In this document: positions 2,510-64,000 of the stretch, piece after piece
How the letters are laid out: each line of letters begins with the position of its first letter
How positions within the stretch are numbered: the stretch's first letter is position 1
DNA from: Physcia stellaris
Lineage: Eukaryota > Ascomycota > Lecanoromycetes > Caliciales > Physciaceae
DNA: 64,000 nucleotides
Reading direction: 5' to 3'
NCBI GenBank assembly: GCA_018902385.1
Contig: JABSSW010000006.1
Coordinates: 806,001 to 870,000 of the forward strand
Notes under the pieces: generated by a model
Seen by the model: the letters and a program-made list of their open reading frames with translations, nothing else
What the model was told of the DNA's origin: nothing
Databases searched by the model: none
Translations under genes and position numbers: made by a program

Positions 2510-2572
2510 TCTTGGACCAATTTCACGGGAAATGTAGCATTGGGCCTTTATTACATTTCGGATAGTCGCTGC

Positions 2573-43179: not shown

Positions 43180-45249
43180 GTGGGCATAGACTTAGATACC
43201 CTGGAAGTGAGCATCTCTCTGGGATAGGGACTCGAGAAATCCTAGATCATGAGCGTTTCGAGAGTACAGCGCAGGCGTTAGGGAATTAGAAGCTCAATTC
43301 GACCGTGTTCGACTAGTAGATTTTTGCCTCAAGGCCTGTTTTCTGACCCTTTTATGTCTACTACAACGTGAAGATACAGTAGATAAAAATGTCAGGTTCA
43401 CCTTGGGCTGTGTGAAGGTAAGGTATTCTAAGCTATTCCCCAAGAATGGAGGGAGTCGTTATACTTCAGGCGTTTTGTATTTTTCATTACCTGAATTACC
43501 AGATGGTGAAGAGAATCAATGCGATGACTGCAATGCGCACGACTCATCAATTTAACTAGTAAACAACAATTGAGTCAAACACTTTTTTTTTTTTTCATTT
43601 TTTCATCATTTTTTGATTTGAATTGATTTCGTCGTCGTCATTTGTATAAAATTTGTGATGTTGAATTTTTGATTGCAAATTTTTTTTTTTTTTATCGTCA
43701 TGAATATCACATCGCAACAACACGTCGTCGTCGCGAAATTTCAAAATTCGTTGTCGTTCGAAAATTCGTCGTCGTCGAATTTTGAAAATCAATTGAGCGA
43801 TTTCATCGACGAATTGAACAATCAATTCAATATCGCGAAAAAAAAATTCGTTTTTTTTTTTTCAATGATTTCATTTTGATCAAAAATTCATCACACATCG
43901 AAATTATTCGTCGTCATTTGTTTTTTGAACATTTTTTTTGTTTAATTCGAAACGAAATGAAATATGTACTTTTTATACGTCAATAATTTTTGAATACACA
44001 ATCAAATCAATAAATTCATTCGCAAAAACATCGTTATCGTATATTGATAATGTCGATTTTGACGTGATACAATGAAATTCGCTGACATTGATAAAAAATT
44101 AAAAAAAATTCGTGACGTGTTCAAATGCATTTGCATCATGAAAATGATGAAACAATTCAATACGATAAAAAAAATGAAATTCATGACGTTGTCATTGAAT
44201 AAAAATCAATATAATCATGATCAAAATTTCGTTAATCGCATCAAATTTAACGAGAAAATTAATCAATTTTTCAAAACAAAAATTGAAAAAAACTATACGT
44301 TTGTCGAAATGCATAAAAATGTTCAAAACATTCATCGAAACGTCAATGTCGTCGTTTTGAAAATTGCTGAAAATTCAATTTTGATTTTTCAAAATGTTTA
44401 TAACGTCGATAAAAATTATTTTCGACGAAATAAAAATTCACGCATTTTGAACGTTCGTAACGAATGAAAACAACAAATGACGAATTGTTATGAATTTTTA
44501 CAAAATCAAAACGAAAAAATGTTGTCAAAAATATTGATTGCGAAACGTTTTATTGACGAACAAATTAATCATATCGTCGTTTTTGCACATCGAAATCAAT
44601 TGTTGTTTTTATTCGAATTTTTTTTATGTATTTTAACGTCACGCGTTTCGTTCACATTTTGATACAAAACATTTGAATATGTTAATGAAACGAAATTATT
44701 TGTTTTTCATGAATTTCATTCACAATATCAACGCGTTCAAATAAAAGTTTTTTATCGTCATGATACGAAACGAATACGAACGTTATTGATTTTGCGATCA
44801 CATGTTAAACAACAATGAAAATGATAATATTATTGTCGTTTTTTTGAAATGTTTACAAAAATGATACAAAATTTGACATTTTCGATATGCAATTATCGAC
44901 GATTTCGCGATCGAACAAAAAACAATGAAATTTGTTTTTCGAAATTTTCGCGTTGACGAACAAAAAATGTTTCATTTTTTATGCAAAATTCATTCGAAAC
45001 GAACGTTCAATCGCAAGTTGATTGAAAATAAATGCAAACAATTCAAAAAACATTTGTATCGAACGTTTTATTTTCGAAAAATTCGCGACGATATTGAAAA
45101 CAACGTCAATGAAACATTAACATTCGTTTTTGACGATGTCATTCACAAATATATTAAAAATAATTGATATGTTACGTTATCGATGTGAACTAATTACGTT
45201 CGTCAGCATTTTTGCATTTTGTTGCAATGCATGATTACGAATATTGTGA
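43180..45249. other. Junction into hypermutated AT-rich DNA; unidentified degenerate sequence
   Basis: From 43,180 to about 43,550 composition is normal 3' flank. Near 43,550 it changes abruptly: CC, GG, CT and AG become rare, CA and CG remain, and poly-T/poly-A runs appear. Between 43,670 and 45,170 the plus strand has open stretches (43673-43879, 44072-44467, 44477-44662, 44925-45167) that could be fragments of one mutated protein gene. I cannot assign a family. It forms the left shoulder of the element nest and is outside the C duplication at 45,250-45,254. Confidence 0.5.
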
Positions 45250-45254
45250 AATTC

Positions 45255-45401
45255 TGTTACGATACATCGTGATGTGAATGAATAATATGTTTGATTGTTT
45301 TATCTAGAAAATTGTCGAACACATATGAAAACTTTGAGACGAACGTTAATTTTTTTTGATCAAACTATTCACAAAATTCAACTCTGATTTTACGCTTTGC
45401 A
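45255..45401. repeat. Element C lower-coordinate LTR, first part (interrupted)
   Basis: First 147 bp of the 172-bp repeat, cut after cgctttgca by insertion of element B. It aligns without gaps to 59854-60000. Confidence 0.85.
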
Positions 45402-45608
45402 TGTGAAATGTCATGCATTGATATGATATTAATACATAACTACACGAGAATATCGAAGTGAAAAGCAAATATCTAATAGATTTGCGAAAACATATGTAGA
45501 AGATTTGATTCTCTGAATGCGTCAAGACGAATTTCGACTCTGTCATTCGATGTGATAAAATAAAAATGTTAGTTTTGCAGATGTTGAATTCGATGCACGC
45601 TCGTCACA
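45402..45608 (-). repeat. Element B 3' LTR
   Basis: 207 bp; differs from 57620-57826 at about 16 sites, all C/T or G/A and all in CpT or CpC context. No length change. Confidence 0.88.
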
Positions 45609-45902
45609 TTACTTCTCGTTTTTTTTCAGTTTCGCTTCGAAACGATCAACTGAATTTCTTTTTTCTTATCGATGAACGTCTCATGCGATCTCGATGACTT
45701 GTTGAATGACGTTGAAACGAGCGATCGCTGAAACATCGAGAATCAAAACAAACGCGAAAACGATGAAGACGATCAAGTCTTGATGCGAAAACGTTGACTC
45801 GATGATCATTAGTAAGCAATTGAGAATTTTGTTGAAAATTTTGTTGATCAATTTGTATGCATTCGAACTTCAGACATTCTGTTACTTTCTCATAGTTCAA
45901 TA

Positions 45903-45980
45903 AGATCGAGCAACAATCTCTGAAGATGTTTTTGACACGATTCAGTTTTTCATGCGCCGTAAGTTCTGACTGTAAATAAC
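45903..45980 (-). repeat. Block shared with elements A and D
   Basis: About 78 bp containing ttttgacacgattcag and catgcgccgtaa; near-copies lie at 51231-51311 and 61085-61161, each on the 3' LTR side of a different element. Confidence 0.7.
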
Positions 45981-46939
45981 ACAGAAACGATAGAGTAAAA
46001 GCTTGAGAAAAAGACTATTAGAGATCAACGAAAGAGTGAGTATGTAGCGAATCTGAAATTGACGTGATGTTTTCTAATTGATTACAGATTTCAGAAACAT
46101 TTCAGTTTCGTTTCGAAGCGATTAATTCATTGCTTTTTCTTTTTTCATCGATCGACAGAATACGTGATTGAAGTGAAGTCGACGAAAACGACGAAGACGA
46201 CGAAAAAGACTTCTGCATGTTTATGTGACTAGAAAGTTCACTTTTTGAATCGTAACGAAAAGATTATTAAGACATCGAATAAGCGAAAATATCACGTCAT
46301 TTCGTATGATGAACGAACGTTTTTTCTTCTGCAAATTTCTGAGCATGCATGCGATGTTCATTAATGATTAGTACAAATACAAAATAAAAAAAATGAAAAC
46401 GTTTTCGAATCTCAATTCGAAATCTCGCATCACGGCATGAACAATGATATTTGCAATTAGATGATATAATACGTCACTTTCGAAATATTCGAGATCAAAA
46501 ATCTCAACGCAGAAACGAAAAACGCGTAGCGATTTGCTTTTTTCAAATCTTTGATATGAATAGAGATATTTAGAATTTGATGACGTCTGTAAGCTAATGC
46601 GAAATATCTGATGTCGAATTCATTGAAGCGATAATTGATCGAAGTTTCGAATAAAAGACTTGAAATAATAAACAGTATGCTCACGATGTAATCTCTGCAT
46701 GCTTTGAGTCGATTCTGTATTTAAGAAACGAAAAATCTCAACGATTTAATGAGAAATCTGATCTGAAACATATCGTAGTGAAAAATGTAAAAGATGTTGA
46801 AGCAAGCGAACAATTGAATGCTAATTTCTTCAAGATTCGATATGTAGTTTTGAGATGTAAAGAATCGAAAATTCGAACTTTTCGATGTAATGAAGACATT
46901 GATGTAAATGTTTCGTATTAATGTAAACGTTGAATCTTT

Positions 46940-47290
46940 GCAACATCAAATCGATTATATGATGAGACGAGCAATTTCGTCATGTTGATAGAATTTTCGC
47001 AACAGCGTTTAATGCATTGATATTTACGCATATGCGAAAATTGATGTGTACATTGCATTCAACAAAGCATGAATGTAATGAATTTTCTGAAAGATGATCA
47101 GTTCATACAATCTTTTACGAGTAATTTCGACGATCATTTGTAAGCAAACAACATCTTAGATCGATTATATCATGAGACAAGCAATTTCACTGTATTAACA
47201 AAATTCGCGTAACAACGATTAACGTATCGATACTTGAGCGCATGCGATAGTCGATGTGTACGATTCATTCAATAGAACGTAAATGCACAA
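46940..47290. repeat. Imperfect tandem pair in element B
   Basis: Two units with a period of about 209 bp, each starting near caacatc and containing gatcgattatat, tgagac-agcaattt and a gtgtac..attcattcaa-like end. A similar pair is in element D (60545-60990). Confidence 0.55.
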
Positions 47291-47339
47291 AAAGATGTTT
47301 CGTGACTGAATATTCGAGCAGTTTATTTCTCGTCTCTTT

Positions 47340-49316
47340 TCAGTTTCGTCTCGAAGCGATAAATTTCATATTGACACGATCAATGATCGAAATGACTTGT
47401 TCGTTGACGATAATGCAACTTATTGTTGCAATTGACACGATCGAAACGATTGCAAAAACAAGAAGAAAAGCCGAAAAAAAACGAAGAAATATGAAAATGA
47501 AAAAGACGATTTTTGCAGTCTTATTCGAATTCGAAAGTTTCAAATGACAGAAGACATCTGACAATTTGTGTGATAAATCGATCAATTTTTCAAACAAGTT
47601 TTTGCTGAAGACAGTACGATTTGATTTCGCAAACATGTGCTGATTCAAACTTTTCGATTTTGAGCTTTTTGAATCTTGACTAATCGACGACTTTTGATTG
47701 ATTTTAGACTTGAAATAAACGATGATTCGCATTTGATTTGAAAATGTTTGAAAAGACACGTTGCTTTGATTCTGAAATAGGTTTTTTTTTTTGAATTTCT
47801 CATTGAACATTTCGAACAGATTTTCGATAATGAGATGAGATTTGATCGAGCGAAATTGACGAATGCCGAAGTTCTGTTGAGACGAAGCGAAATTTTGATG
47901 CTGTTGCAAATCAAATGATCTAGACTTTTCATCAAACATGTGAATGAAATCATTCATAATCAGATAGAATTTCTGAAAATGAAACTCGTGATGTTTTCGA
48001 ACTGAAATTTGAGAAAATGAGAATGAAAGAATAAATGAGCAATTGATTAATAGTTTTTTCATGAATTTTGATGTGATATTGAATGTCGCAATAGAGAAAT
48101 GCGAACACTTTGATGATTCTGATTCAGATATCGATGCAAGACAAAATATCGACTTTGATGTTGCAAAGAAAATAGACGAAACAGACGAAGCAGATTCGCA
48201 AATAAATGTTGATTTCTTCTTGATTTTACATGTAGATTCTGATGTGAGAATTCGAAAATTGAAATTTTTGACAAGTTTTCGAGCATGATGTTCGCGAATA
48301 TGTTCGTGAAACTTGTTATTGAAATTGAAATTCTGATTGCAACGCTTGCAGATTCGTCGAACGCATGTGATTTTCTGATTTGATGCGCTTTTTCTTGATT
48401 TTGACATGATTTCAGATGCTGTAATCGAAAGATTCAAACATATTGATGAAATTGATCGATTAATAGTTTTTTTAATTTCTGTTTGCTTTCGAGTTTTTTG
48501 ATTTCGTTGATGTGTTCGACGAGCGAGTTGTTGTTTTAATCGACGACGTAATGTTTCATCACACGAATGAAATTCGAAATAATGCTTTTGTATTGAAAGA
48601 ACATTGACTCGACAAATGTGACAACTTTTCTTGAAAACTGAAGAAAGAATAAATGATTTCTGTGAAATAATAGAGCATTGAGTTGATTTGTTTTTCATCG
48701 ACTTCGATACAGTATCTGATGCACTAGATGAAAGATGCGAAATCTTCGATGAAGTGATTGCTTCGGAAATCAAAACAGACTCGAATTCTTGCTTTGATGT
48801 TGCAGAAGAATTGTCAGGTTTCTGCGAAGCAGACGAATCAGTGACAATTGACTTTTTCATCGTTTTGCATACTAAATTGACTGCATTGATCGAGAAATAA
48901 AAGTCTTTGACGAGCTTCAAAGTTTCATGATTGCGAATATGCTCGTATAACTTTCTGTTGAAGTTGAGACTCTGCTCGAAAAGCTTGCAAATTGTTCGAG
49001 TATTTGTGATTTCTTGATTTGATACGCTTTTCATCGATTTTGATGCAAAATTGAATGCATGTAGCTGAAGATTCGAGCATCTTGACGAAACAGACTGCGA
49101 AGATGTTTCTGTATCGAGTATATGATTTCTGAAAATGACAAAGATCAATGATTCAACGAAAATGATGAATGATTTTTTCTTGATTTCGCATATTGACTTG
49201 ACTGTATCGACTGAAAAAGACGAGCGATTGAGCGACTTTTTTGCATGTTGCTCGCGCACGTGCTCGCGAAACTTTTTCTTGAAATTGAAATTTGAATCGC
49301 AACGCATGCAAATCAT
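47340..49316 (-). pseudogene. C2H2-finger protein of element B (658-codon open frame, hypermutated)
   Basis: Open for 658 codons from an internal ATG, and open further upstream. Contains at least four C2H2-type fingers (CMRCDSNFNFKKKFREHVREQH; CKLFEQSLNFNRKLYEH; CHICRVNVLSIQKHYFEFH; CKRCNQNFNFNNKFHEHIREHH), of which the second lacks a Cys. They are followed by two copies of a YLIMNDFIHMF / HLIIENLFEMF module, a MRIIVYFKSKINQ...SKSLNQHMFAKS module, and a hydrophobic stretch near the C-terminus (FFIFIFLRFFSAFLLVFAIV). No Trp and almost no Pro or Gly remain. The long frame is expected from the CpY-only mutation pattern and is not evidence of selection. The hydrophobic stretch may partly be a mutation product. 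Family function is unknown to me. Confidence 0.65.
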
Positions 49317-50383
49317 ATTTGCAGTTTTGATCTTTGCAAATGAGACATTCGCGAAATCGACTCGTAAGATATTAATTCACTTACTTAATGATGTTGAGTT
49401 CATGATTGTTTGTCTATCGAATCAGATATCGAAAGCAGAATTTCAAAGACAAGTGAACAACAACATGAGCAAATCTGACTTTCGATATAGATGCTGACAG
49501 TGTTGAAGATGTTGCAAAAAGTTCACGACTTCATTGAACAGTTCAGCATTCAAGTCTTCAAAAATGAATTCTGAATAGAAAATATCGATATGTTGAATCA
49601 TTGAAGTCATCGTGAAAACTGAAGAAAAACAATCGATTGATAAGAAAATAAATACGTTTTCGAACTGATTTCGAACGAACGAGATGATGAGAATTTTGAA
49701 TATTGAAGAAGATTCTAAGAATCGATATGAGTTTTTTGAATTGAAGTGATATTGACTTTATCGCAGAAACTGGAAATCAGAATCGATTTGCTAGACAAAC
49801 AGACGTGATTTTTGAATATTTTCAAACATTTCAGATGATGTTGATATCGAATGCGACGAGAAAGCTTCACTAGAAGATTCTAGACGTTGAAGACTTGATA
49901 TTGAGTTTAACAATGAGACAGAAAACAAATGCTGATTTGCTAGATAAATAGATGAAATATCGAAAGACTTTCGAAAGAGAAAAATGATTGCAATACTTGA
50001 TGCTGATGAAAATTCGAACGATCTTTGAAATCGGTACTGAGATTATCGTTGAAATCAGAAAGTATGATCGATTAGAAAGAAAAACAGATAAGATTTCGCA
50101 ATGTTCTCGAAGAAGACGAATGATCTCAGTACTGAATTCTTGTCGAAATATTGACCGAAGATATGAGAAATCTGAAAAACTGATCTGAGATCTGAATTCG
50201 GAATGTTATCAACTTCATCATCGATGCTGAAAAGATCTAGCTGATTTGCCTGACGAACAGATGTGATTTCTGAAATCTCTCAAGAAATAAGAATGTTTCA
50301 GATACTGATATGAAACTGTCGATACTGAAGATTCTGTAAAAGAATTGATTGATTTTCTAATTCGAGTATTGATGTTATCACTG

Positions 50384-50692
50384 TGTAAAATTCAAGAAAT
50401 GTGACATCAGAAATGTATAGCAGAAACGATTGTATGACTAGACTAATAATTGCAAAATTAACTATTTTACAGATTTTTGTTTATATAGTCAATCAATCTG
50501 CTCAATCGTACACACACTTCGAAATCTATTCGAAAATATGAACTTGTTGAATTCAATCGAAAATTTGATGTTGACGTGATCAAACTGATCGTTTTCATGA
50601 TTTATCGAATTTCGATGATCGAATTGCTTGATATAATTTTATCGAAATTCGATTCGCAATGTTCTGTTGATTTGAATTCTGAATGCTTTACA
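50384..50692 (-). repeat. Element A 3' LTR
   Basis: 309 bp, heavily mutated; aligned gap-free to 56592-56900 with about 27 transitions and no transversions. Confidence 0.9.
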
Positions 50693-51230
50693 TGCGTTTC
50701 TTTTTTAGCATCGAAATTTTTTGAAATGATCAACATTTTTCGACATGTTTCGCAATAGAAATTCGTTAAGCTTGTGTAAATATGTTTTTTTCTTGAAACT
50801 TGAAAAATCGTTGTAATCGCGATTTTCGCATTCGAAATCGTTGAATTGAAAAATCACTGTCATCGTGATTTTCGCATCTGAATATCTTTCATCTCGATCT
50901 CTAATCAATTTGCGTTAAAAATCTGAAAATACATCTTTTTGAATGATTCAAAAAAAACATGATTTGATGATTTCACTATCTGTTGCTTTCAGAATCGAAA
51001 ATTTGATTTCGTACAATTCACAATTCTCGATTTGATGACTGACAGCTAACTGATTGACAGTAAGTTTTGAATTCGAGTCATTTTTTATCTTTCTGTTTCT
51101 TTTTTTCGTATATCGAATTCATGAAAAATTTAAACGCGAAAAACGTCGTTGTCGCGATCGCATTCGATATATCAAATTTCGAAAATCTTTTTGATTTTTT
51201 TTTTCATTTCACATTCTACTCGTCGTTCAG

Positions 51231-51311
51231 TCAGATCGAACAACAATTTTTGAAAATATTTTTGACACGATTCAATTTTTCATGCGTCGTAAATTCTAGA
51301 CAGTAAATAAC
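51231..51311 (-). repeat. Block shared with elements B and D
   Basis: About 80 bp with tttttgacacgattcaat and catgcgtcgtaaatt, matching 45903-45980 and 61085-61161. Confidence 0.7.
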
Positions 51312-51812
51312 ATTGAATTACATATGAAAATTGAATTTTCTTGTCAACGATTTCATCGTGAAAATTACATTTATTTGACGTCGAACGCGTCGACGATTGA
51401 TGATTTTGCTTGTATCGTTTTTTTTCGAATTATTCATGTGAAATTCGCGAAGCATATTTCTTAAATGTTTAATCATTGCAATTGACTTTCAAATACGTTT
51501 TTCGTAATTTTTTCATTGAATCAAATAATAGAGTTTTGATTCATTGTATGATTTATTCGAAATCTGATTTTCTTTATAGATTTTGCTGTTCAAAATGACT
51601 TCAATTCAAAATTTTTCGTTCGTGAATTCTTCGTCATTTTCGATATTCGATTGATACGTGAATTTTAGCGAAACTTTTTTTTTCTTTTTAGATTTGACTT
51701 TTTTCAGCAATGAGACGTGAAAAACGTCATGAATTCGTCAACGTTTGAATATTTCGAATTGATATGTTTGATTTTTTATTGTTTTGAATATTTTGAATGA
51801 ATCGAAAAACTT

Positions 51813-52133
51813 TCATTCGAGTTTTTTGTTGCGTTTGATGCGAATGTTTTTGTCATTGACGTTGACGTAATTTTTTACGTCGAAATTTTTTATTTTTGTC
51901 TTTGCATTTTTGTATTTGATTTGTTGTTTTTGTGTTTGTGCTAAATTGATTTTTAATATTTTTATCAATTCGATCAGTTTTTCGACATATTTTTTTGCAA
52001 ATTTTGACTTAATTTTGAAATTTGCAAATTTTTCGAATGACATTTTCGAAATATATTTTTGCATTGTTTCAAAAAACGACATTTGCGTGAACGCATGTTT
52101 ATTATTGTTGTAAACAAATTCAATCATCGACAA
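51813..52133 (-). pseudogene. Element A integrase C-terminal part
   Basis: EFVYNNNKHAFTQMSFFE matches the end of the Ty3 integrase core, followed by the linker NLAQTQKQQIKYKNAK and KNYVNVNDKNIRIKRNKKLE. The frame then stops at a TGA (51813-51815) where a conserved Trp is expected. Confidence 0.8.
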
Positions 52134-53584
52134 TAGTTTTACTCAATTATTTTGTTGAAAATTGACGAAAATTTTGAAATATTGTTTCATGATTGAATTT
52201 TGACGTTTCGTCTGATCATTTGTTTGCGAATGATAAATCGTTGATAATTTAAACTTGATTTTTAAAACGTAACACAAAACGTCGTGATATTTTGAAATAA
52301 AAATCGAATTTTTGTTTGTTGTTATCGAAAAAAAAAATCATGAAATTTAATGATTTTTCGAATTAATATTTCGACGAAATTTTCTGCGATCATTGTTTTT
52401 TTGATCGAAATGTAATGTGTCATTTTCGTCAGACGATTTACGACAACGAATATTGCATCATACGTTGTTTCGTTTCATGCTTTGTTTTCAGATAGATTTG
52501 TCACGAAATTCATTGTAATGTCAACTCATTTGAATTTCGATATAAAAAAAGATGATAATTTTTCATATGATTTGTGACGAAATGTTTTGCTTTTTTTGCA
52601 GATTGCACATGTTTCGCAATATTTTTTTATTTGTGCACGTATGTTTGAATCGTGCTCGACGTCAACGATTTTATTTTGATTCGATCAATAATATTTTCTT
52701 CGTATTAACTTTAAAATGCGTTTTACATCGAAGTGATTTGCGAAAAAATTGTCGTGATTTGATTTTATGACATTTTTTTTCAAATTCGATGAAACGTACA
52801 AACAGTTTTCATGTCATAATATTTCTTTTTCGTCTATTCAAGACGAGTGTGATTTTTCAAAAATAGTTAATTTTTGTCTCACTTGAATCGCACAAAGATT
52901 TTTTTTTAACAATGAACGAATCAACTCGACAAGATTGTCAATGATGTTATCGTCGTATGTTGCATCATGTTCATGAATATGCTTTCGCGCAATCATTTCA
53001 TCGATCGATTCGAAAATCGTTGCACTATTCAATATTAATGTTTTTCACTCGTTGATAATCACGTCTGATGTATTTAAAGCGAAAAAAAAATCATTCGAAA
53101 AATTGTTCTTTTCATTTTTTTCAAAAAATTCGCACGCGAATATTTCACTTTCATTGAATTCGAACATCGTAATTCTAATTTCGTTCACATAAATCGAAAA
53201 CTCGTTCGAATTTGTTTGTAAAAACTGTCGCAAACGCGTCAAAATTTGATGATTGTTTTCAATTTTATTTTTTGTGATCGTCATGTGATCAAATCGTTTT
53301 GACAAGTCGTTCGCAAAATTCTTGTTGTCGAAACGATAATCGATGACAAAATTGTAACGTGATAATTCTTGTGTTCATCGTATTTGTCGAAATGATAATT
53401 TCGTTGTAATCATAAAACGATTGAGATTTCGATGATTCGTCAAAACGAAAATTTGATGTTTCGCTTTTTTCAAATAATGACGTCAATGCTTGAATGCGAA
53501 AACTATGATCAAAAACTTTTTGTCGTGAATTTCATAATTACATTTCGCGAATATCATTTTTTTTGAAAAGTAAATTATCGAATG
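52134..53584 (-). pseudogene. Element A RNase H C-terminal half / integrase N-terminal half, broken
   Basis: Short open pieces (53486-53289, 53305-53045, 53032-52838) lie between the RNase H and integrase end fragments, in the expected place for the rest of RNase H, the zinc-binding HHCC region and the integrase core. The piece at 53305 (FDHMTITKNKIENNHQILTRL) resembles the RNase H-integrase connector. Individual domains cannot be delimited by eye. Confidence 0.5.
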
Positions 53585-53935
53585 TCAATGATCTTTGTCG
53601 TCTGATTGACAAAGTATTTTTTTTATTGTTTTATTCGAAACGTCGATTTTCACACGAATGAACTTAGTCGAGTCGAAATGTTGCAAAACAGAAATTTTCA
53701 TAAACGTTTTGCGTAGTCGTTTGAATGATTCGAAAATTTCGAAAATCAAGAATTCGTTCGATAATCGTTCTTTATTGTGATTTTTATTTCGATTTCGCTT
53801 TTTTTTAGTTTTTTTCTTGTGAAGTTTTGCTGATTCTTTTAGCATGAAAATCAAGAATAATGTCAACTTACTGAAGTTCTTGATAAATCGTTTATAGAAA
53901 TTGCACAAATCGAGAAACTCGAAAATTTCGAACAC
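53585..53935 (-). pseudogene. Element A RT thumb / RNase H start
   Basis: FLDLCNFYKRFIKNFSKLT is the characteristic Ty3 RT thumb segment, followed by LSNEFLIFEIFESFKRLRK and VLQHFDSTKFIRVKIDVSNKTIKKILCQ, the start of RNase H with its first catalytic Asp (KIDVSN). Confidence 0.88.
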
Positions 53936-54188
53936 GTTTCTAGGTGCAGATCAATTTTGTATAATTTCGATTTTGTTCTGTTGCATTTGCATTTTTTTCG
54001 ATGAAACGATAAAGCTCAGAAATTCGATACTATCTTTAAAGAATTTACATTTTTTCATGTTAAGAAAAGTTTGTGCTTTTTTAAACGACTTAGTATTCAT
54101 TTGACGTTTTCGACGTGTTGTGCTTCGTCTTTAAAATAGATAATTATATCGTTCAGATAGACAATGATCGACAAATTTAATCGCTCGA

Positions 54189-54944
54189 TCAGAATTTTGT
54201 TAACGAAATTCTGAAACGTTGCAAATGCATTAGTGAAATCGAAAAACATAACGATATATTCAAAATGTTCGTATCGTGTTTTGAACGTTGTTTTTCATTC
54301 GTTTTTTTTTTAATACGAAGTCGATTGTAAATCGTTATCATGTCAAGATTTGTATATTTGCGAACTTTGCTTAAACGATTCAGATTTTCATCGATTAATG
54401 ATAAAGAATATCTATTCTTGATCGTTAAAAAATTAAGACTTTTGTAATTTACGCACAATCGTAAAATTTCGTTTTTTTTTTTAACGAACAAAATCGAAAC
54501 GCTCGCAAAAAAAATGAAAAATCGAATAAATTCGTTTTTCAAATGTTTATTCAAATATGCTCGCAAAACTTTGAGTTCGTTTTCGAACAATGCGTAAATG
54601 AATTTATACGATGATTTCTTGTCTGATTTTAAATTTATTGCGTGATCGTCGAATTCATGATCAAATAACTCGTATGTTTTGTTCTCATTTGTCATGTCAG
54701 CGAATTCTTTCAAAATTTCAAATAGAGAATTCTTGATATTTTTTTTTTTCATTTTCGCGAAAACAAAATCGATTTGTGATCGTCGCTCGATGTGTACGTC
54801 ATTCAAGTACTTTATCTCGTCAAAAATCATTTGTACGAACATGACAAAAACATGTTCTTCTTCATTGAAAGTTGCGTTGATTAATTTTTTTGATTCGATT
54901 TTCTCGATACGATTCGTGATGAAAAAAAATGATTTTACAATCAT
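54189..54944 (-). pseudogene. Element A reverse transcriptase
   Basis: FDDHAINLKSDKKSSYKFIYALFENELKVLRAYL and SILFVKKKNEILRLCVNYKSLNFLTIKNRYSLSLIDENL are the fingers/palm of a Ty3 RT with G-to-A and C-to-T replacements throughout; LDMITIYNRLRIKK covers motif A. After it a frame slip at an A run is followed, in the shifted frame, by NE then TGA (54295-54297) at the position of the conserved Trp. Confidence 0.9.
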
Positions 54945-55025
54945 CGATCATGATTTGATCTTGTCGATATTTCAATTCACGTCGATCTCAAATAATTGTA
55001 TTCAAAATAAATTTAAAATCATGCT

Positions 55026-55448
55026 TCAGTTTAAATTCGTTTCTAGAAAATTATCGTTAAAAAAACGATTCACGTCGTTTTCGTTCTGTATTTCGAATTG
55101 TACAAAGTAAATTTCATAATTCTTGAATGAGTTGTTTTTTATGATCACTGTTTCGCAATTCGATACGTTGAATGATTTTAACTCGAATCGTTTAACAAGC
55201 TTTTGATTTATTAAACTGATTTTTGCTTTTGAATTCATAACGATTTCGAATTTCAATTTACTCTTCTCGTCAAATGTTTTATTTATTTTGATTTTTGTTT
55301 TTTTGCATTTGATCGTGCGAAATTTTCTAAAACGACGTTTTGCGTTTTTGATTTCGATAGTGAACGTATTGAATTCGTTCGAATTTGAATCGATGCGATC
55401 ATTTGTTATTGAGTTTTTTTTCGTATCAACTTGATTGAAAATTATCAA
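55026..55448 (-). pseudogene. Element A protease region
   Basis: KFEIVMNSKAKISLINQKLVKRFEL has the position and hydrophobic pattern of the aspartic protease active-site region just upstream of RT. The catalytic Asp-Ser/Thr-Gly is lost (NSKA), which fits G-to-A mutation of Asp and Gly codons. Confidence 0.7.
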
Positions 55449-55519
55449 GTCGATTATTTTTTTGATTTAAAATCTGAAAAAATCTTCTCGAAAAAAACGA
55501 TATTCGATTTGATATTTTT

Positions 55520-56542
55520 ACATTTTTTAATATTGCATTTCGACTTATCGCAGTCGATGCATTTATTGTTATTCACGATATTTTTGTATTCAATTCTGAT
55601 TCAGCGTCATAGTTTCTTGAACTTGATTGTCTCGCGATTAAAATTGTCAAATTTGAGTTTTTTATCGCTTTTTCGATTTTTTCGTCGATTTTTGTTAAAT
55701 CGACGATTGTTTTTTCCGTTCTCATCGAAGTTATTTTCGTTTTTTTTGCGCTTGTTAAAATCGTCATCAATTTTATTCTGATTGACGTTGCGCTGCTTTT
55801 TGCGCTGAAAGTCTTTTCGTTGTTTGAAACGTTTCAAAATCACGTTTTTATCGTCTTCAATTTCTTGTTCAATCAAAAAGTTCTGATTATTTTGAATTAA
55901 ATTCAATACGAAATTCTGTAACTTTATTGCTGATGAAAACTTCATAATTGAATGTAAATTCGAAAACAGAGCGATGCGATGTGCATCGTAATTCTTTATT
56001 GATTGATTGATTTTCTGTTTGTAATTTCTATATTTTTCGAAGTTATTCTTCTTTTTGATGAAAATTTTTTTGATGTTTTTTTTGAAAAAGTCGACATATT
56101 TTTTTCAAATATAGTTTTTTTTTGAATTGTTTTTGACTCTGACACTTCATAATAACTGTGCAGTAGATTTTTTCTTTAGAAAAATGACAACAAAAAAGAA
56201 TTTGATTTTGTCAAAATTCTTGACGTAATCGTTCACTTGATTCATGTCGAATTGATTTTTCATTTTTCAAACGTATTGAGTTCATTCTTTATAATTGTTC
56301 TCAAAAAATAGTTTTGACTTGTCGCTCATTATCTTGATATAGAACGATTTTTTCCTAATGACAGAAACTTGAACGACTGAAAATGTAAATGTAAATGCAT
56401 TCTGTAGTGCTTTCATTCGAGCATGTTGTTGTTGAATGTATGCTCGATATTTTTTCATGATGACATTTGATTTTGATGAATTCAGAATGAATTCATCTTC
56501 AAAATTCGTGAGAATACTCATATTAATGAAGAATGTAAACAT
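55520..56542 (-). pseudogene. Element A gag region
   Basis: Lys/Arg/Asn-rich fragments (55945-55607, RRFNKNRRKNRKSDKK) precede a zinc-knuckle-like motif at 55561-55520 reading KCIDCDKSKCNIKKC. Its spacing C-X2-C-X4-C-X4-C equals the retroviral-type knuckle except for Cys in place of His. The 56542-56282 fragment, near the 5' LTR, includes YIQQQHARMKALQ. Confidence 0.6.
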
Positions 56543-56591
56543 GCTGTATACACGAATGATGCTAATTTATGAATTATGATAATTATTAAAA

Positions 56592-56900
56592 TGTAAGATT
56601 CAAGAAGTGTGACATCAAAAATGTATAACAGAAACGATTGTATGACTAAACTAATAATTGCAAAACTAATTACTTTACAGATTTTTGTTTATATAGTCAA
56701 TCAATCTGCTCAATCGTACACACATTTCGAAATCTATTCGAAAGTATGAACTTGTTGAGTTCAATCGAAGATCTGATGCTGACGTGATCAAACTGATCGT
56801 TTTCATGATTTATCGAATTTCGATGATCGAATTGCTTGATATAATCTTATCGGAATTCGGCTCGCAGTGCTTTGCTGACCTGAACTCTGAGTGCCTTACA
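56592..56900 (-). repeat. Element A 5' LTR
   Basis: 309 bp. The last 60 bp (from about 56840) are nearly unmutated, with GC-rich words such as ggctcgcagtgc, while the matching bases in the 3' LTR carry the C-to-T changes. Confidence 0.9.
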
Positions 56901-57619
56901 CACTGAGACAGAAGAGGAAAACTGAAGTAGGTGCTGATTGATAGGCTTTCCGACTGACTCTCGAGCAAAGCGAATAGCTTCGATGTTGTTGTATTGACGA
57001 AGTGTGGAATCGAGATATGTAGGCTTCTTGACTCGATATCACAGTCACTTCCGTACAGCTTCCTGATTAAAGTATTAAAGCAATCCAAAGGATAGGAAAG
57101 AATGGTCGAGTTGCTAGTAAAATAGATCTGATTCTGAAGAATTCTCAAAGAAGGTAGATGATCCGAGTTCGATCGAGAAAGTGAGAACGGTGTTTCGTGT
57201 ATTGATGATCAAGAACCTGATTTCTGGCTCAACGGCGGAGTTACTGGTCCGGCCACTGCTCAGGTATTTCTGGTATAGTGTTTTCTTGACGTAAGGGGAT
57301 TTGTTAACTTGGTGGCCTAGGCCTGATTTATTGCTTAATGGGTTTCTGATAAATCTGTTTGACGACTGCCTTTGCAATTCGTCCTTCGGTTTTACATCGG
57401 CTTTCGCGATAGACACTTCCTTGGAAGTTCTGCACAGCACTAGAGCGAGCTAATTGCTCTTTGTTCTCTCTTTGCTGACCCGCTGAATAGAGTCGAGCCT
57501 CCTTGTTCAGTCTGACTTTGGGAGTGACGTCTTAGGTCTTCGCGTTGATTTGGGGTCTTGTTTATTGAGTAAGCTGTCGTACTCCGAGCAGCTTGAAGGA
57601 ATGAGTGACTTCGATATAA

Positions 57620-57826
57620 TGTGAGATGTCATGCATTGATATGGTACTAATACATAACTACACGAGAATATCGAAGTGAAAAGCAAATATCTAGTAGACT
57701 TGCGAGAACATATGTAGGAAATTTGATTCTCTGAATGCGTCAAGACGAACCTCGACCCTGTCACTCGATGTGATAAGATAAGAATGTTAGTTCTGCAGAT
57801 GTTGAATCCGATGCACGCTCGTCACA
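57620..57826 (-). repeat. Element B 5' LTR
   Basis: 207 bp TGTGAGATGT...TCGTCACA; the less mutated of the two B LTRs, retaining words such as gaacctcgaccctg. Confidence 0.88.
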
Positions 57827-57831
57827 CTGCA

Positions 57832-57856
57832 TGCGTAGCATGCAAAATTCATAACA
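57832..57856. repeat. Element C lower-coordinate LTR, second part
   Basis: 25 bp completing the interrupted C repeat (tgcgtagcatgcaaaa...ataaca). 147 + 25 equals the 172 bp of the intact copy. Confidence 0.85.
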
Positions 57857-57866
57857 AATGCTCACG

Positions 57867-57896
57867 AAAAAAAAAAAAGACTGCGTTTTCGCAGTC
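57867..57896 (+). repeat. A12 run and perfect 7-bp hairpin next to the C LTR
   Basis: Twelve A residues (57867-57878) are followed by GACTGCG-TTTT-CGCAGTC (57879-57896), a perfect stem with a TTTT loop, 10 bp inside element C. On the minus strand this reads stem-loop then T-run, like an intrinsic-terminator shape; in a fungus it could mark an RNA 3' end. Function unknown. Confidence 0.6.
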
Positions 57897-58044
57897 ATGC
57901 CATCTGTCGAAAAGAAAATGTGAAATTCATCGCTGAGAAATCTATTAGTAATACACGTAAAGAAGTAAAAAATTCATCGAGATTTTCGTTCGTTGACTCA
58001 GATATCTCTGTAAATTGCGTCCGAGACGAGATTTAAATCTTTCT

Positions 58045-58740
58045 TTAGAGCTGATCCAAACGTTGATCAGAAAATTTCCGTTCGACGAAACGACGATGAC
58101 GATGCTTCAAATGCGTGCAGCGAAAATGCTCATGCAAATCGTTGTTGAAACGAAAAATTCGAAAACAACGACGACATGTGTGAAAGTTGAATTTCTTGAT
58201 CAAGATCATTAATGAGATATTCGAAATCTGACGATCAACGTAATGTTCAGCAAATATACGTTCTGATTTCGATTTCGAATCGTGCATTGAATCAACGTAA
58301 TACGCGACTTTTGATTAATTGAATCGTTGAAATTCGATTCATTGATTGCAAAGTTTGAAATCTTGATTGACGTTGTTTGAATAAAAAGCAACTGTAAATG
58401 ATATGTCATCGAAAATAAAAAACATTTTGTATGACAAAATTCTCGATTTCTTTGACGTGATTTCGAAAAAAGATATGAATTTCGTGCAAATCGATTTCGC
58501 AAACATGAGTTGATGAAAACTTTTCGAATTTGAAATTTTCGAATTTTGATTAATCGATGCGTTCTGATTGATTGCGAACTTGAAATAGACGATGATTTTG
58601 ACTTGATAGAAAATCTTTGAAAAAGATGAATTCTTTTTGATGTGTAACAGACTCATTTTTTTCGACTTTTTTGCGAACATTTCGTACAGATCATCGATGA
58701 TCAGATAAAGTTTCTGATGTTTTCGAAACGAAATGAATAA
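58045..58740 (-). pseudogene. Element C protein remains: EMF module and C2H2 finger
   Basis: On the minus strand: KLYLIIDDLYEMFAKKSKK (near 58730-58670), KIIVYFKFAINQNASINQ...SKSFHQLMFAKS (58610-58500), then CRRCFRIFRFNNDLHEHFRCTH (near 58180-58110) and HRRFVERKFSDQRLDQL. The first two modules match those in the element B protein (HLIIENLFEMF, IVYFKSKINQ, SLNQHMFAKS), and the finger resembles its fingers, but here it follows the modules rather than preceding them. Frames shift between pieces. Confidence 0.6.
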
Positions 58741-59549
58741 ACGAGTAATTGATGCGATCTTCAGCGCTTTTGATGTTGATTTAAATGCAAAAATTGAGAA
58801 ACGTGAAAACTTTGATACAACGACTGAACGTGAAACGATTTCGACTCAAAATAATGACTTTCTTGATGTTGCAACTGATGAAATTGATGAAATCATAAAA
58901 AAAATATCGAAAAGTGAATTCTTCGAAATCACTTCTGAAAAAATAATAAATGATGTGAGCATCAATGTTGACTCATTTCGTGATGTTGCAAAAAATGTTG
59001 ACATTGCGATCATTGCTTTTGATCGTTCGATTGATTCAACAGATGACTGCTTTGATGTAAAAAAAAGTGTAAACATTGCAAATTCGCTTCGAGAAAAAAT
59101 AAAAAATGCGAGCATCGTTTTTGATGAAACATTTGCAAATCGCGTTTGTTGTTGCAATTCTGTCTTGTGCTTTTTGACTCGCAGAAGTTTCAACTTTTCT
59201 TGTTCGTAAAAATCAAACTTCTGATACAACACTTTGCACAGAATATCGAATTTCTGCGTCAAATAATCTTGTAAATATGACGTTTGATCAAAGAATCATT
59301 GTTCAACAGAATTTTTGAAACAAAAACGAACGATAAAGTATGATTGAGCTTTTGAATTCTGTTTCGTCTTTTTCTCAAAATTCGCTAAAAAGTTGTTGAC
59401 GTCGCGATAAATCGCACATGATCACGTCTTGTCGATCAGAATTCGATTCTCAAAATATTTGTTGAATACATGAAGATTGAAATAAAAGATGTCGAGCAAT
59501 CGTTGATAAAATGATTCGAAATGCGACATGATGTAAAAAAAGAAATCGT
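58741..59549. other. Element C interior, upstream part
   Basis: Hypermutated. The minus strand is open at 59262-58846 (FDFYEQEKLKLLRVKKHKTE...) and the plus strand at 58733-59209. The minus frame is probably the N-terminal part of the element C protein because it has the same orientation as the modules; no family recognised. Confidence 0.4.
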
Positions 59550-59644
59550 GATCGATCGATAGATCGATAAACAGATCGACAAATAAATAAATAAATAGAT
59601 AGATAGATAAATAAATAAATAAATAGATAAAAAGATAAATAAAT
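59550..59644 (+). repeat. Compound microsatellite (GATC/GATA/AATA)n
   Basis: About 95 bp of atcgatcgatagatcg followed by (AAAT)n and (AGAT)n blocks. Confidence 0.9.
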
Positions 59645-59853
59645 TTGCTGACATCAAATGATTAAATGTTCGATTTGATTTTTAGTACAATAAAATCAAA
59701 TGCAAATATGCTCTCAGCGAAATTGATGATACTTTTCGATTTTGATGCTTATTCAACGACGTTGATACGACTCAACGACGTTGATTGTTGCTAAAAAAAC
59801 TTCTCAAAGACAATCATGAAAGCTGTCAATCGTATATTCGATGATGTTATCAT

Positions 59854-60025
59854 TGTTACGATAAATCGTGATGTGAATGAATAATATGCTTGATTGTTTT
59901 ATTTAGAAAACTGTCGAGCACATATGAAAACTTTGAAACGAACGTTAATCTCTTTTGATCAAACTATTCACAAAATTCAACTCTGATTTTACGCTTTGCA
60001 TGCGTAACATGCAAAATTCATAACA
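59854..60025. repeat. Element C intact LTR (and empty site for element B)
   Basis: 172 bp TGTTACGATA...ATTCATAACA. It contains the undisturbed acgctttgcatgcgtaac junction at 59991-60008, that is, the target of element B before insertion. It differs from the interrupted copy by about eight CpT-context transitions and one transversion. Confidence 0.85.
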
Positions 60026-60124
60026 AATTTTGACACGTTTCGTTGAAAATTCATGACGACGATTAATATTTTTTCATATTTGATGACATTAAATTAACAA
60101 ATTAACAAAAAAACATTTATTATT

Positions 60125-60350
60125 TGTGAAATGTCATGCATTGATTGAACTAATACATAATTACACGAGAATTTCTAAATGAAAAGCAAATACATGAAAA
60201 TTTGTAAAAACATATGTAAAAAATTAAATCGTTTGAATGCGTCAAAGCGAATTTCGATTTTAACATTCGATGTGATAAAATAAAAATGTTAATTTTAATG
60301 ATTGATCAAATGTTGATTTCAAATGTTGAATTCGATGCACGCTCGTCACA
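60125..60350 (-). repeat. Element D 3' LTR (B family)
   Basis: 226 bp starting tgtgaaatgtcatgcattga and ending cgatgcacgctcgtcaca, the same ends as the 207-bp B LTRs. It is more diverged in the middle, with an extra 19 bp near 60,300 containing repeated atgttga words. Confidence 0.82.
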
Positions 60351-60544
60351 TTATTTTTCGTTTTTTTTCAATTTCGTCTCGAAACGATTAATTGATTTTT
60401 TTTCTGAACGTTTTGCGCGATGCAAATATGTCGTTGAATGACGTTGAATTGATTTGTCGTCGAAACAAAAAAATAAACGCGAAACGTCGCGAAATAAATT
60501 TCGTCAACGAAATAGATTCGTCGAAATCTTGAAAACACTCACAT

Positions 60545-60990
60545 GATCATATTTTGAAATAAACAATTCGAACATGTTAATAAAATCGTCGTTACAATTT
60601 TTAATGCATTGAAATTTTCGAATGTGCGAAAATGAATGTGTACATTGCATACGTCAAAACGTAAAATCAATGAATGTTTTGAAAAATAATCAATTCATAC
60701 AATTCGTAAAAAATAATTTCGACGAACATTAATAATTGATGATTCGATTTCGCGTATCGACAAACATGAAAATTTTTGCAACATCAAATTGATATCACGA
60801 AACGAACAATTTGATCACGTCGATAAAATTTGTGTTATCATGATTAACACGTCGACGTTATCGCATATAAAACAATTGATTCGTATAATGCATTCAACGA
60901 AATATGCATGTATTAAATTTTTTGAAAAGCAAATATTTTGTACGAATTTTACAAATAATTTCGCGTGTCATTAATAAGCAATTGAAAATT
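60545..60990. repeat. Imperfect tandem pair in element D
   Basis: Two units with a period of about 230 bp, containing aacatgttaataaaatcg / gatcacgtcgataaaat and the ends gtgtacattgcatacg / taatgcattcaacg. They correspond to the pair in element B at 46940-47290. Confidence 0.5.
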
Positions 60991-61084
60991 TTGTTGACGA
61001 ATTTGTAAATATTCGAATTTTTTGACATTTTGTTGTTTATTCATATCATTGCATGACATTTTATATTATCATTCATTGTTCAAT

Positions 61085-61161
61085 AAAATTTGACGACAAT
61101 TTTTGAAAATGTTTTTGACACGATTCAGTTTTTCATGCGACGTAAATTTTGATTGTAAATA
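61085..61161 (-). repeat. Block shared with elements A and B
   Basis: About 77 bp with gtttttgacacgattcag and catgcgacgtaaat, matching 45903-45980 and 51231-51311. Confidence 0.7.
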
Positions 61162-61806
61162 ACGCAAAATGACAACGAAACGAATGACAAAAAAAAAATC
61201 ATTGACGTCAATCTGAAAATGAATTGTAACGAATTCGATGACAATTTTCTGATTGATTACAAACAGTAAAATTCACGATTTAGTCATTTCGCAAAACAAA
61301 TTTTGTTGTTTTTGAATTAATTTCGTGAAAAACATCGACGATATTTTGAACATTTTGAAATTCATCGTCGTCGACATAATATCAGATGCGATCGTGAAAA
61401 TTTCAATTCGATCATTTACAACGATATTGAAAACGATGATAATGATATCGAAATTGCAATATGTCGTCGAATTTTCATTCGAATGTTTCTTTTGCGATAA
61501 CGAATTTCGAAAAATCGTTGTGTTGTCTTTTCAACGAATCGTTGAAAAAATTTTTTAGCAATCAAAAATGAAAAACGAAATAAATGTGCATGTCATCGAA
61601 CAATTTCAATTCGTAAACAATGTTTCGTTTTTTGACAACGAAATATGAATTCAATTTTTTGTCATTCAGTTTGTCAAATGAACGAATTGTTTTGATATAA
61701 CGACGATTTAATCATACATAATTTTTGTTTCAAAATTGATCGAATAGCGAAATTTGTTGATTCGAATCGTTATTTTTTGTTTAACGTCAACAGCATTGAT
61801 TTTGAT

Positions 61807-62387
61807 TCACTCGATAATGCAATTCATTTTTTCGACGATAAATTCGCTTTGTTTGATCAATAAACGCTTTTTAATGATTTCGTAATCATTTAGATTCGAA
61901 TCAAAAATCATTCGAAAATGATAATTTTTATTGATAAAAAACGAAATGAGATTTGTGATTGCGAAAACGTCATTGTTGTCAGCGAATTTCATGATGTCGA
62001 TTCATTCAATTCAATCGTTTTAACGATAATTGCAATATAAACGTAAACGAATTTTAATGTTTTGATTAGTTCGTTCGATTTGATCATTCGTTTGAAACTG
62101 AAATGTTGTGAACAATTTACATTTGATTTTTAAACGTTTGCAGAAATTTTTCAAACGCGATTCACAAATTGATCATTTCGATTCGAAACGATAAAAAAAA
62201 ATAAATCATGCGTGCGAAATACGTAATGAAACAATATTTTGACGCATGTTTCGATTGTCAAATCGTCATTTTCGATCACACAGAAAACATAATGTCGTTT
62301 TTTGATTAATCGATCGATAATAATGCAAATAACGTTGTTTTTTTTGAATTCAAATAATTCGATTATAAAATTTATCGAAATATTCAT
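61807..62387 (-). pseudogene. Element D integrase
   Basis: ISINFIIELFEFKKNNVICIIIDRLIKKRHYVFCVIEND and FHYVFRTHDLFFFIVSNRNDQFVNRV match the Ty3 integrase core around the second catalytic Asp region. The frame then ends at TGA (62151-62153) at a conserved Trp. KFADNNDVFAITNLISFFINKNYHFRM (61992) is the C-terminal part of the core. Confidence 0.85.
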
Positions 62388-62683
62388 TTATCGTTGATTA
62401 AAAATTGACAATGATGTTAATAATTCATGACGATCATCGTGAAAAATTTTAAAACGTTGACATTTGTGACAATTACGAATGTAACGTTTGATAAATAATC
62501 GCATATTAAATCAATAATAATAACGTTTAATGAGTTTTTCAATGCGATTCATGTTCGAATGAACACAAAAAAATTGATCGTGAACATCGCGAATTATTTC
62601 AATCATGAAATTTAAACGATTTGATATTCATAAATTTTCGTTTTTGAAAAGAACGTTGTTTCGATTTGAACATTTTTGTAAAT

Positions 62684-63470
62684 TTATTTTTCGTTGATGA
62701 TTTGTTCATCGATCAAAATTTGACGATAATTAATGCAATTTTCATTTTTTCGATTGATTTGCATTATTCGTTCGTACAAATCGTTTTGAACGTCAATCGA
62801 ACATAATTGCAATCGAAAAAACGACAACAAAATTTGTTTTTTATAAAGTTTTCGTTCGTCGTTATCGACAAAACGAAATTCAAACATTCGAATCAAAACG
62901 TTCGTTTTAATATTTTTGATTTCGAATTGATATTGAATTTTGATGTTGTAATCGATCAAAATTTTTGCTCGACGTATTTAACGAAAAATAAATTTTTTGT
63001 TTGTCATGAAAATTTTCAAATTTTTGTGATCGATGTAAATTTCGACGAATTCGTCGATGTTTTCGAATTCGAATTTTCAATGTTTCAAACATCGAATAAT
63101 GATTAGAAATTTTTTGTCGTATATTTCGTAATTGCATTCGACAAAAATCATTTTTTTGCTGAAAAAAATCATCGAATAAAAAAATTTTTCGTTATCGTAT
63201 TGCGACAGAATTTCATTCAAACATCAATTCGATGAATCAGTTTCTAATATAATTTTACGATTACGATCGTAATGTCGAAATATGAAAATTTCGATAATTT
63301 GTTTTTTCAATGTTTCGAACGTTTCATTGACGAAATCGATTCATTCGAAATCAATTTTTTTTTTGATCATTCGAATCAAAAGTTTGACGAATTTGAAAAA
63401 TGTTTTGATGAAACGACGATAAAAATTGCAAAAATTCACAAACGTTTGCATTTTTTTAATGCAAATTAAA
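62684..63470 (-). pseudogene. Element D RNase H / connector remains
   Basis: IDYNIKIQYQFEIKNIKTNVLIRMFEF (62959-62880) is the end of RNase H in Ty3 elements, followed by the connector toward integrase. The 63,000-63,470 part is broken. Confidence 0.65.
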
Positions 63471-63475
63471 CGAAT

Positions 63476-63979
63476 TCAATTGACGATATTTTGAATTTTT
63501 TTGAAATTCATACGTAAATTTTCTGTCGTCAATATGACGTTCAAAAATGAGATTTTCGTTTGAAAAAATTCGCATTTCTTGATATCAATTTGAAATTCGA
63601 CTTTTTTCAGTTTTTGAAACATTTGTGTGAAATGTCGTTCATGTTTTTTTTCAATTTTGTTGTAAATAAAAATATCGTTCAAATAAATTTGACAAAAATG
63701 ATTAATATATTCGAACAACAAATCGTTCATGTAATGTTGTCAATTCGTCGAATCATTTGTTAATTCGAAAAATAATACATGATATTTGTAAATGTTCAAC
63801 GAACATATAAAGATAATCAGTTTTTCGTTTTGTGAATTCATTCGAAATTTATTGAAAGTTGATATGATGTTCAATTTGAACAAAAATTTGCAATCTATAA
63901 TTCGAACAAGAATTTTTTCAATCAATGATATAGAATATTCATTGCGCTTGATTATAACGTTCAATTTTCGATAATTCAC
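63476..63979 (-). pseudogene. Element D reverse transcriptase
   Basis: NYRKLNVIIKRNEYSISLIEKIL, KLNIISTFNKFRM and FICSLNIYKYHVLFFELTN give palm motifs. After a frame break, MNDLLFEYINHFCQIYLNDIFIYNK contains the catalytic motif as YLND (second Asp of YxDD mutated to Asn at the first position), then CEFFQTKISFLNVIL. The frame stops at TGA 63476-63478 at a conserved Trp. Confidence 0.88.
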
Positions 63980-64000
63980 ACAAAAATGAAATTGTTCGTT

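Follow-up and report, generated by a model that had tools for sequence, protein, structure and literature searches.

Repeated DNA of the lichen-forming ascomycete Physcia stellaris (Physciaceae, Caliciales) is hypermutated from C to T on both strands at cytosines followed by a pyrimidine (CpY, i.e., CpC or CpT), while CpA and CpG are nearly spared. The window, a stretch of 64,000 bp (C6:806001-870000; C numbers denote contigs), comes from an assembly of 43.97 Mb in 147 contigs. Mutation contexts were counted on samples of this assembly, namely element copies, long terminal repeat (LTR) pairs, fetched loci and tiles, and on these samples the spectrum, its polarity, the action on both strands, a sharp edge and copies graded up to near saturation were all observed. 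The most probable explanation by far is a system of repeat-induced point mutation (RIP) with an inverted next-base preference (CpC > CpT >> CpA, CpG), active now or until recently, with the RID-family protein RIDb as its proposed agent. The published P. stellaris genome measures 46.57 Mb with 43.32% G+C (PMC7513301), and the assembly analysed here may be a filtered version of it. Published work is cited throughout for the parts of each text that were available.

The regions and repeats of the window on which the first counts were made are the following.

1..43500, no strand: flank of ordinary composition, serving as internal control (G+C fraction (GC) 0.49; CN dinucleotides at 0.89-1.10 of expectation)
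43545..64000, no strand: CpY-mutated, repeat-rich AT compartment, with its edge between about 43,500 and 43,560
50379..50383, plus strand: left target-site duplication CACTG, 5 bp identical on both sides
50384..50692, plus strand: left copy of LTR A (TG...CA), 309 bp, 27 differences to its partner, all transitions
56592..56900, plus strand: right copy of LTR A, partner of 50384..50692
56901..56905, plus strand: right target-site duplication CACTG, the same 5 bp as 50379..50383
45402..45608, plus strand: copy 1 of repeat B, 16 transitions relative to 57620-57826
57620..57826, plus strand: copy 2 of repeat B, less mutated, paired with 45402-45608
45255..45401, plus strand: copy 1 of repeat C, 8 differences from 59854-60000, 7 of them transitions
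59854..60025, plus strand: copy 2 of repeat C, aligned gap-free to 45255-45401 plus 57832-57856
56751..58250, no strand: less mutated patch, GC 0.38-0.46, overlapping a dispersed family

The original prediction held that the three repeat pairs differ almost exclusively by C/T or G/A changes in which the mutated C precedes T or C. A scripted recount of the gap-free pairs reproduced this exactly: among 52 differences, 51 were C/T or G/A and one (45265) was a transversion, and the base 3' of the mutated C, taken from the copy in which that C is intact, was T in 43 cases, C in 8, and A or G in none. With mutated sites restored, CpY accounts for about 0.345 of the C sites in the three pairs, and the chance of 51 out of 51 is about 3e-24 if sites are independent. 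The bulk composition of 43551-64000 likewise agreed with what had been claimed, the observed/expected ratios being 0.09 for CC, 0.54 for CT, 1.24 for CA and 2.42 for CG, with TA at 0.42 and AA/TT at 1.26. Across the four preceding bases, the ratio C/(C+T) ranged from 0.02 to 0.04 before C, 0.06 to 0.21 before T, 0.09 to 0.65 before A and 0.08 to 0.51 before G; the low values before A and G arise where a C precedes, because it is the first C that is lost from CCA and CCG. Not a single CC or GG was found in 58251-64000, against 223 expected by base frequencies. At the edge of the compartment, 250-bp and 60-bp profiles showed CC plus GG per 250 bp dropping from 24 to 0-1 and GC from 0.43-0.5 to 0.26-0.31, and at about 43.5 kb the composition shift was completed within about 60 bp. 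Inside the mutated compartment, the patch 56751-58250 retains much CpT and some CpC; it is perhaps a younger insertion.

The direction of the changes was determined on a Ty3/gypsy-type element with 226 candidate matches in the genome, the best 40 of which were scored. Two of these, on C5 and C12, are GC-rich (GC 0.52-0.53 across 3.5 kb), and the other 38 show 72-83% identity. The C5 copy (L076), which contains a 1024-codon frame with reverse transcriptase, RNase H and integrase zinc-binding domains, served as the reference for the ten best-scoring of the other 38 copies. In these ten, C had become T at 1361 of 1468 CpC, 1425 of 2008 CpT, 96 of 1822 CpA and 31 of 1500 CpG sites. Altogether 2913 changes were C>T (1510) or G>A (1403), compared with 133 reverse transitions and 62 transversions, and each copy carried 217-319 C>T plus G>A per 1.4 kb and 4-9 transversions. 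The preceding base barely mattered at CpC (0.92-0.94 mutated) and mattered little at CpT (0.63-0.79). In the least mutated of the ten copies (CpC 118/147, CpT 93/199, CpA 5/183, CpG 1/151), the CpC rate was about 2.5 times that of CpT, as estimated from -ln of the unmutated share. The second GC-rich copy differed from the C5 copy at CpC 5/148, CpT 7/203, CpA 4/183 and CpG 1/151; since it also differs at CpA and CpG, ordinary divergence may account for some changes in these two contexts. Of the 52 transitions between the two GC-rich copies 37 lie at CpY, as if the copies had been lightly hit.

LTR A gave 254 candidate matches in the genome, of which the best 40 were scored; the loci L035-L054 were picked for containing LTR A and are thus a non-random sample. 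The 30 LTR-A loci have a GC of 0.21-0.34. Twelve LTR A pairs differed at CpT 187/248, CpC 8/10, CpA 27/503 and CpG 4/320, with two sites whose next base was unclear and 12 transversions. Seven of the twelve carry a 5-bp target duplication that is identical or one transition apart, and here the counts were CpT 139/193, CpC 8/10, CpA 11/301 and CpG 2/184, with 8 transversions. The remaining five pairs lack a target duplication, are maybe not partners from the same insertion, and gave CpT 48/55, CpA 16/202 and CpG 2/136. The original count of no change at CpA or CpG is exact for the three pairs of the window; in the genome samples CpA is weakly touched (27/503 in all twelve pairs; 11/301 in the seven).

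The pattern came back in each mutated sample that was read, also in those chosen more broadly. Of 20 one-kb tiles, taken one per contig and blind to content, four were AT-rich and all four held 0 or 1 CpC. In 519 AT-rich 250-bp windows from the loci L035-L074, C/(C+T) before C, T, A and G was 0.005, 0.061, 0.497 and 0.482, respectively, compared with 0.46, 0.512, 0.607 and 0.449 in 72 GC-normal windows from the same loci. Among 140 AT-rich 1-kb windows of the loci and the window, the CpC ratio was below 0.1 in 139, and neither the CpA nor the CpG ratio fell below 0.3 in any. Nine fetched loci with raised CpC were considered as counter-evidence and rejected as such; all nine were profiled, and CC occurred in local stretches, mostly with GC 0.35-0.58 and some of them part-mutated, while the surrounding AT-rich DNA was CpC-free.

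The stop codons of decayed elements carry the same mark. Under CpY mutation only TGG can turn into a stop, namely TGA. Among the best 150 scored of 527 reverse-transcriptase matches, 10 were stop-free and the other 140 held 286 stops, made up of 250 TGA, 33 TAA and 3 TAG. When all CpY of the intact frame were mutated in silico, 13 TGA and no TAA or TAG arose and all 74 Pro and 50 Gly codons were removed; CpA mutation of the same frame gave 47 TAA/TAG. The polarised comparison of copies, the LTR pairs, the genome samples and the spectrum of stops all back the predicted RIP-like CpY hypermutation of repeats, and neither a dominance of CpA nor a large CpA/CpG share was seen in the samples.

Copy number was probed on four stretches. 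The unmutated flank stretch 41001-42200 is single copy in the genome, while the mutated 44001-45200 has five matches including itself, and 56950-58100 has 61 including itself. On the four probes mutation was confined to duplicated DNA, the three mutated stretches (these two and LTR A) being repeated and the one unmutated stretch single-copy. The only other full-length match of the heavily mutated 44001-45200, C3:197006-198205, is 96% identical to it, which suggests either duplication after mutation or joint mutation of the two. 5S rRNA genes are spared in Neurospora crassa (PMC2621366); here eight dispersed 5S rRNA matches scored above the cut-off (one at 57 bits, the others at 77-89), which would fit an exemption of short repeats.

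Judged by the marks of RIP, P. stellaris shows directional C-to-T mutation on both strands with few transversions, together with RID and DIM-2 homologues, and it lacks the CpA preference (high TpA/ApT, low CpA+TpG index). The defence behaves like RIP and departs from canonical RIP in its CpA criterion. In the mechanism that we propose, duplicated DNA would be recognised and C turned to T on both strands, and the next base would be read in the opposite way to classical RIP, with CpC hit most, then CpT, and CpA and CpG nearly left alone. Duplication itself would be the trigger, and the process would recur round after round during the sexual cycle. P. stellaris carries abundant apothecia (PMC7513301), so that a pre-meiotic timing in the sexual cycle is possible. 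By analogy with other ascomycetes, the agent would be a RID-family DNA-methyltransferase-like protein, presumably the divergent paralogue RIDb.

The PF00145 profile found four matches in three genes of the genome, on C3, C5 and C6. The gene on C3 is DIM-2-like, with an E-value of 2e-181 to the solved DNA methyltransferase 9bap. The C5 gene, RIDa (P0001), groups with ordinary Lecanoromycete RIDs in the tree. RIDb lies at C6:790906-792561, 13.4 kb to the left of the window, and a three-exon model (two introns) yields a stop-free protein of 513 amino acids. It contains SPPCQSFSPAQ and MEETFGL, and thus the PPCQ and E-x-T that we take to be the motif labels of RID/Masc1-class C5-methyltransferases. 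The tree comprised 81 rows with a midpoint root, 13 further rows without the motif being left out and no named Neurospora RID being among the rows. In it, RIDb and 14 of its 38 nearest hits formed a clade with a support of 100/98 inside the other RID class, with Heterodermia as the one named member; the other 24 nearest hits were assigned on similarity alone (the whole set spans 44-94% identity). A Gln in the catalytic loop is found in RIDb and in 38 out of 38 nearest hits (27 by pattern, 11 by eye). At the same place the other RID-family hits (189 hits: P0001-P0120, P0159-P0227) have His in 165 and Asn in 2 of the 167 readable cases. In addition, the region before motif IX is about 8 or 9 residues shorter in RIDb, Heterodermia P0128 and P0146 than in RIDa, a difference visible in these three proteins, most relatives being too incomplete. 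Ten relatives of RIDb (P0137, P0140, P0147, P0151, P0152 and P0154-P0158) read PPCP in place of PPCQ beside the Gln change. The loop Gln of RIDb aligns to an Asn that adjoins a Met of mammalian DNMT1, and this Met presumably enters the DNA. An influence of the loop Gln on next-base choice is therefore plausible, and we infer that RIDb may be the mutator. For the original suggestion of a RID/DIM-2-type enzyme with altered next-base preference, the genome offers candidates in a DIM-2-like gene and two RID-family genes, one RID paralogue being unusual.

Several results weigh against this reading or limit it. The mutations were read from sequences and none was watched occurring. The repeats examined were transposable elements only, so that "repeat-induced" and "element-targeted" are unseparated, and the copy-number probes included a single unmutated stretch. 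The two GC-rich element copies, C5:1166021-1167420 and C12:59812-61211, are 96% alike and stand without strong mutation. CpA is not fully spared, with 27/503 against 4/320 for CpG in the LTR A pairs, and its C/(C+T) is 0.497 in AT-rich as opposed to 0.607 in normal windows; this fall may stem from a low rate of mutation at CpA or from the native composition of the elements. In a 16-copy LTR A alignment, 19 of 44 CpA columns vary, with 600 pairwise CpA differences versus 1294 at CpT, and the mutated cells are CpT 311/416, CpC 28/32, CpA 51/699 and CpG 9/448. This alignment, of 16 distinct copies out of the 30 loci (a reduction probably due to low-complexity filtering), is cruder than the pairs, and we think that its higher CpA share than in the target-duplication pairs includes subfamily differences. 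Together with the CpA counts of the LTR pairs, it is the result that most contradicts a perfect CpY rule. Same-strand autocorrelation of mutations, a possible mark of a processive enzyme, was found in one of four copies (p 0.0035, uncorrected) and was absent in three; same-strand neighbour counts were raised in none of the four, and strand runs and distance correlations gave nothing consistent. Finally, RIDa looks conventional, and it could be the mutator.

Other sources of the same changes are less convincing. C-to-T is also the product of a cytosine deaminase, which would here have to be targeted to heterochromatin or repeats, and three OTT_1508-type deaminase-fold genes are available as candidates, with PF14441 matches over the cut-off at C38:375945, C34:399643 and C17:41218. 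AID/APOBEC-type deaminases read the preceding base. The neighbour table rules out such a specificity, as mutation is decided by the next base and depends hardly at all (CpC) or little (CpT) on the one before; the genome moreover has genes of the RID family, to which the known factors of RIP belong, and a deaminase is an unlikely mutator. The DIM-2 homologue, in turn, would allow 5-methylcytosine (5mC) to be laid down in heterochromatin in an odd context and to deaminate over time rather than in bursts, and dim2 does promote C-to-T in Zymoseptoria tritici (PMC8016269). In that fungus, however, 5mC follows CG > CA > CC with nearly none at CT, and CA is where mutations fall (PMC8016269), which the CpT mutation and intact CpG of P. 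stellaris do not fit. Slow decay also sits poorly with the hundreds of directional changes and only 4-9 transversions per 1.4-kb copy, and we regard it as quite improbable. Decay of CpG methylation was rejected outright, CpG being intact with 31/1500 sites mutated and a CG observed/expected ratio of 2.42.

The damaged base could also be a guanine, that of RpG in the opposite strand, where a repeat-directed O6-guanine modification pairing with T would give G-to-A; RIP would then not be a cytosine reaction here. We know of no repeat-directed enzyme that modifies O6-guanine. Such a route would explain a CpC/CpT spectrum that is the inverse of the published RIP contexts, and the alkylation signature SBS11 is C>T in the same two contexts, but its cause is chemical and it is not confined to repeats (PMC12556801). 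The compartment ends within about 60 bp, a limit that a diffuse alkylator would not respect, and a gene matching PF01035 (E 1.4e-22) is present. We take PF01035 to be a domain of O6-alkylguanine alkyltransferases, and with this match loss of alkyltransferase repair was discarded as a cause; guanine damage in general appears very unlikely. An artefact of long-read assembly or base-calling is hardly credible: the published assembly is a nanopore and Illumina hybrid (PMC7513301), but GC-rich copies of the same element family read normally in the same assembly, and proteins of other sequence origin, some possibly from P. stellaris, likewise include relics depleted in Pro and Gly.

The coding relics and frames in the mutated part of the window are the following.

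54189..54947, minus strand: relic of the reverse transcriptase of element A; the frame is open and has no Pro, Gly or Trp at all; Pfam RVT_1 is found in related proteins, and the relic alone gave no Pfam match
53585..53950, minus strand: RNase H-like relic of element A (RT_RNaseH_2, E 1.2e-5, 25.7 bits, below the curated cut-off of 29.8)
47340..49376, minus strand: 678-codon open frame in mutated repeat DNA, with 1 Pro, 1 Gly and 0 Trp, and no Pfam match

As TGG becomes TGA while CAA, CAG and CGA survive, mutated elements resemble genes that read TGA as tryptophan. When the mutated part of the window was read with TGA as Trp, frames of at least 250 codons rose from 2 to 12. The relic reverse transcriptase used as query gave 234 database matches, of which 120 were listed (P0238-P0357). 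Among those listed, 109 had less than 2% Pro plus Gly, with pooled values of 0.04% Pro, 0.09% Gly, 1.98% Gln, 2.32% His and 4.67% Arg, and the remaining 11 had 4.15% Pro and 3.42% Gly; the query is itself free of Pro and Gly, which biases the search towards such matches. The 109 relics come from ncbi or jgi rows (48) and ena or lgn rows (61) and form 7 groups at 60% identity. Their composition points to decay of this kind in other element families and other sequence sources, with P. stellaris possibly among them, and CpY-type decay may occur in further fungi. Five relics (P0241, P0242, P0247, P0249 and P0253) have 0% Pro and Gly and 1.2-1.8% Trp, as if called with a TGA=Trp code. No relatives of the element were found in collections of prokaryote genomes and viral contigs. 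Mutated elements keep long open frames, and gene finders, including those for metagenomes, may call them as proteins or as TGA=Trp genes.

Published RIP indices rest on CpA (PMC2621366, PMC7882544). With RIPper-like thresholds (TpA/ApT > 1.15, substrate index <= 0.75, composite > 0; values in PMC7882544), none of 247 windows in 17 mutated loci and none of 39 in the window were called, and the composite index was negative in 17 of 17 mutated loci. Surveys based on these indices would call a CpY-mutated genome RIP-free. The RIP of Gyalolechia flavorubescens and Cladonia metacorallifera, Lecanoromycetes in which it has likewise been reported in repeats, was called by CpA-based indices (PMC7882544), and in Cladonia rangiformis, another lichen with reported RIP, transposable elements have a GC of 10-20% (PMC12542154), below that of the 30 LTR-A loci; the available text on these lichens states no next-base context. 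The term "repeat-induced" does not occur in the available text of the P. stellaris genome paper (PMC7513301).

The system resembles the RID and DIM-2 based RIP of N. crassa in its two-strand C-to-T mutation of repeats and in belonging to an ascomycete with homologues of both proteins. In N. crassa, however, the preference is CpA>CpT>CpG>CpC (PMC5496416) as against CpC>CpT>>CpA, CpG here, and TpA rises under RIP whereas in P. stellaris it is depleted (0.42) and the stops are mainly TGA. In Trichoderma reesei, CpA and CpG are about equal and ahead of CpT>CpC (PMC5496416). Magnaporthe, Botrytis and Sclerotinia (Amselem 2015) share mutated CpT and RID/Masc1-class genes with P. stellaris, but in all three CpT is mutated together with CpA, and the term CpC does not occur in the available text (PMC4352252). 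CpT signatures have been reported alongside CpA within one species (PMC4352252, PMC10998396, PMC6180176), and among the same sources single families of Colletotrichum truncatum lean to CpT with low CpA indices. Hypermutation in Microbotryum (TpCpG) and Tuber (CpG) is alike in the C-to-T bias of elements and the non-canonical context, but it targets the CpG that is spared in P. stellaris; this type is known from basidiomycetes and Tuber (PMC4352252). In the literature covered on RIP and lichen genomes, which left most subscription papers outside, we came across no RIP in which CpC is hit and CpA left alone. A screen published in 2025, covering 1,239 genomes of fungi, concluded in its available part that a CpA preference is common to RIP-like defences (PMC12543289).

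P. stellaris breaks this CpA rule, its strongest context, CpC, being the weakest in Neurospora. The fate of its elements also differs from that under classical RIP, as Pro and Gly codons are wiped out and TGG turns to TGA while CAA, CAG and CGA are kept. The switch in preference amounts to a natural experiment on the next-base choice of the RID family, for which the paralogue with the Gln loop is the candidate.

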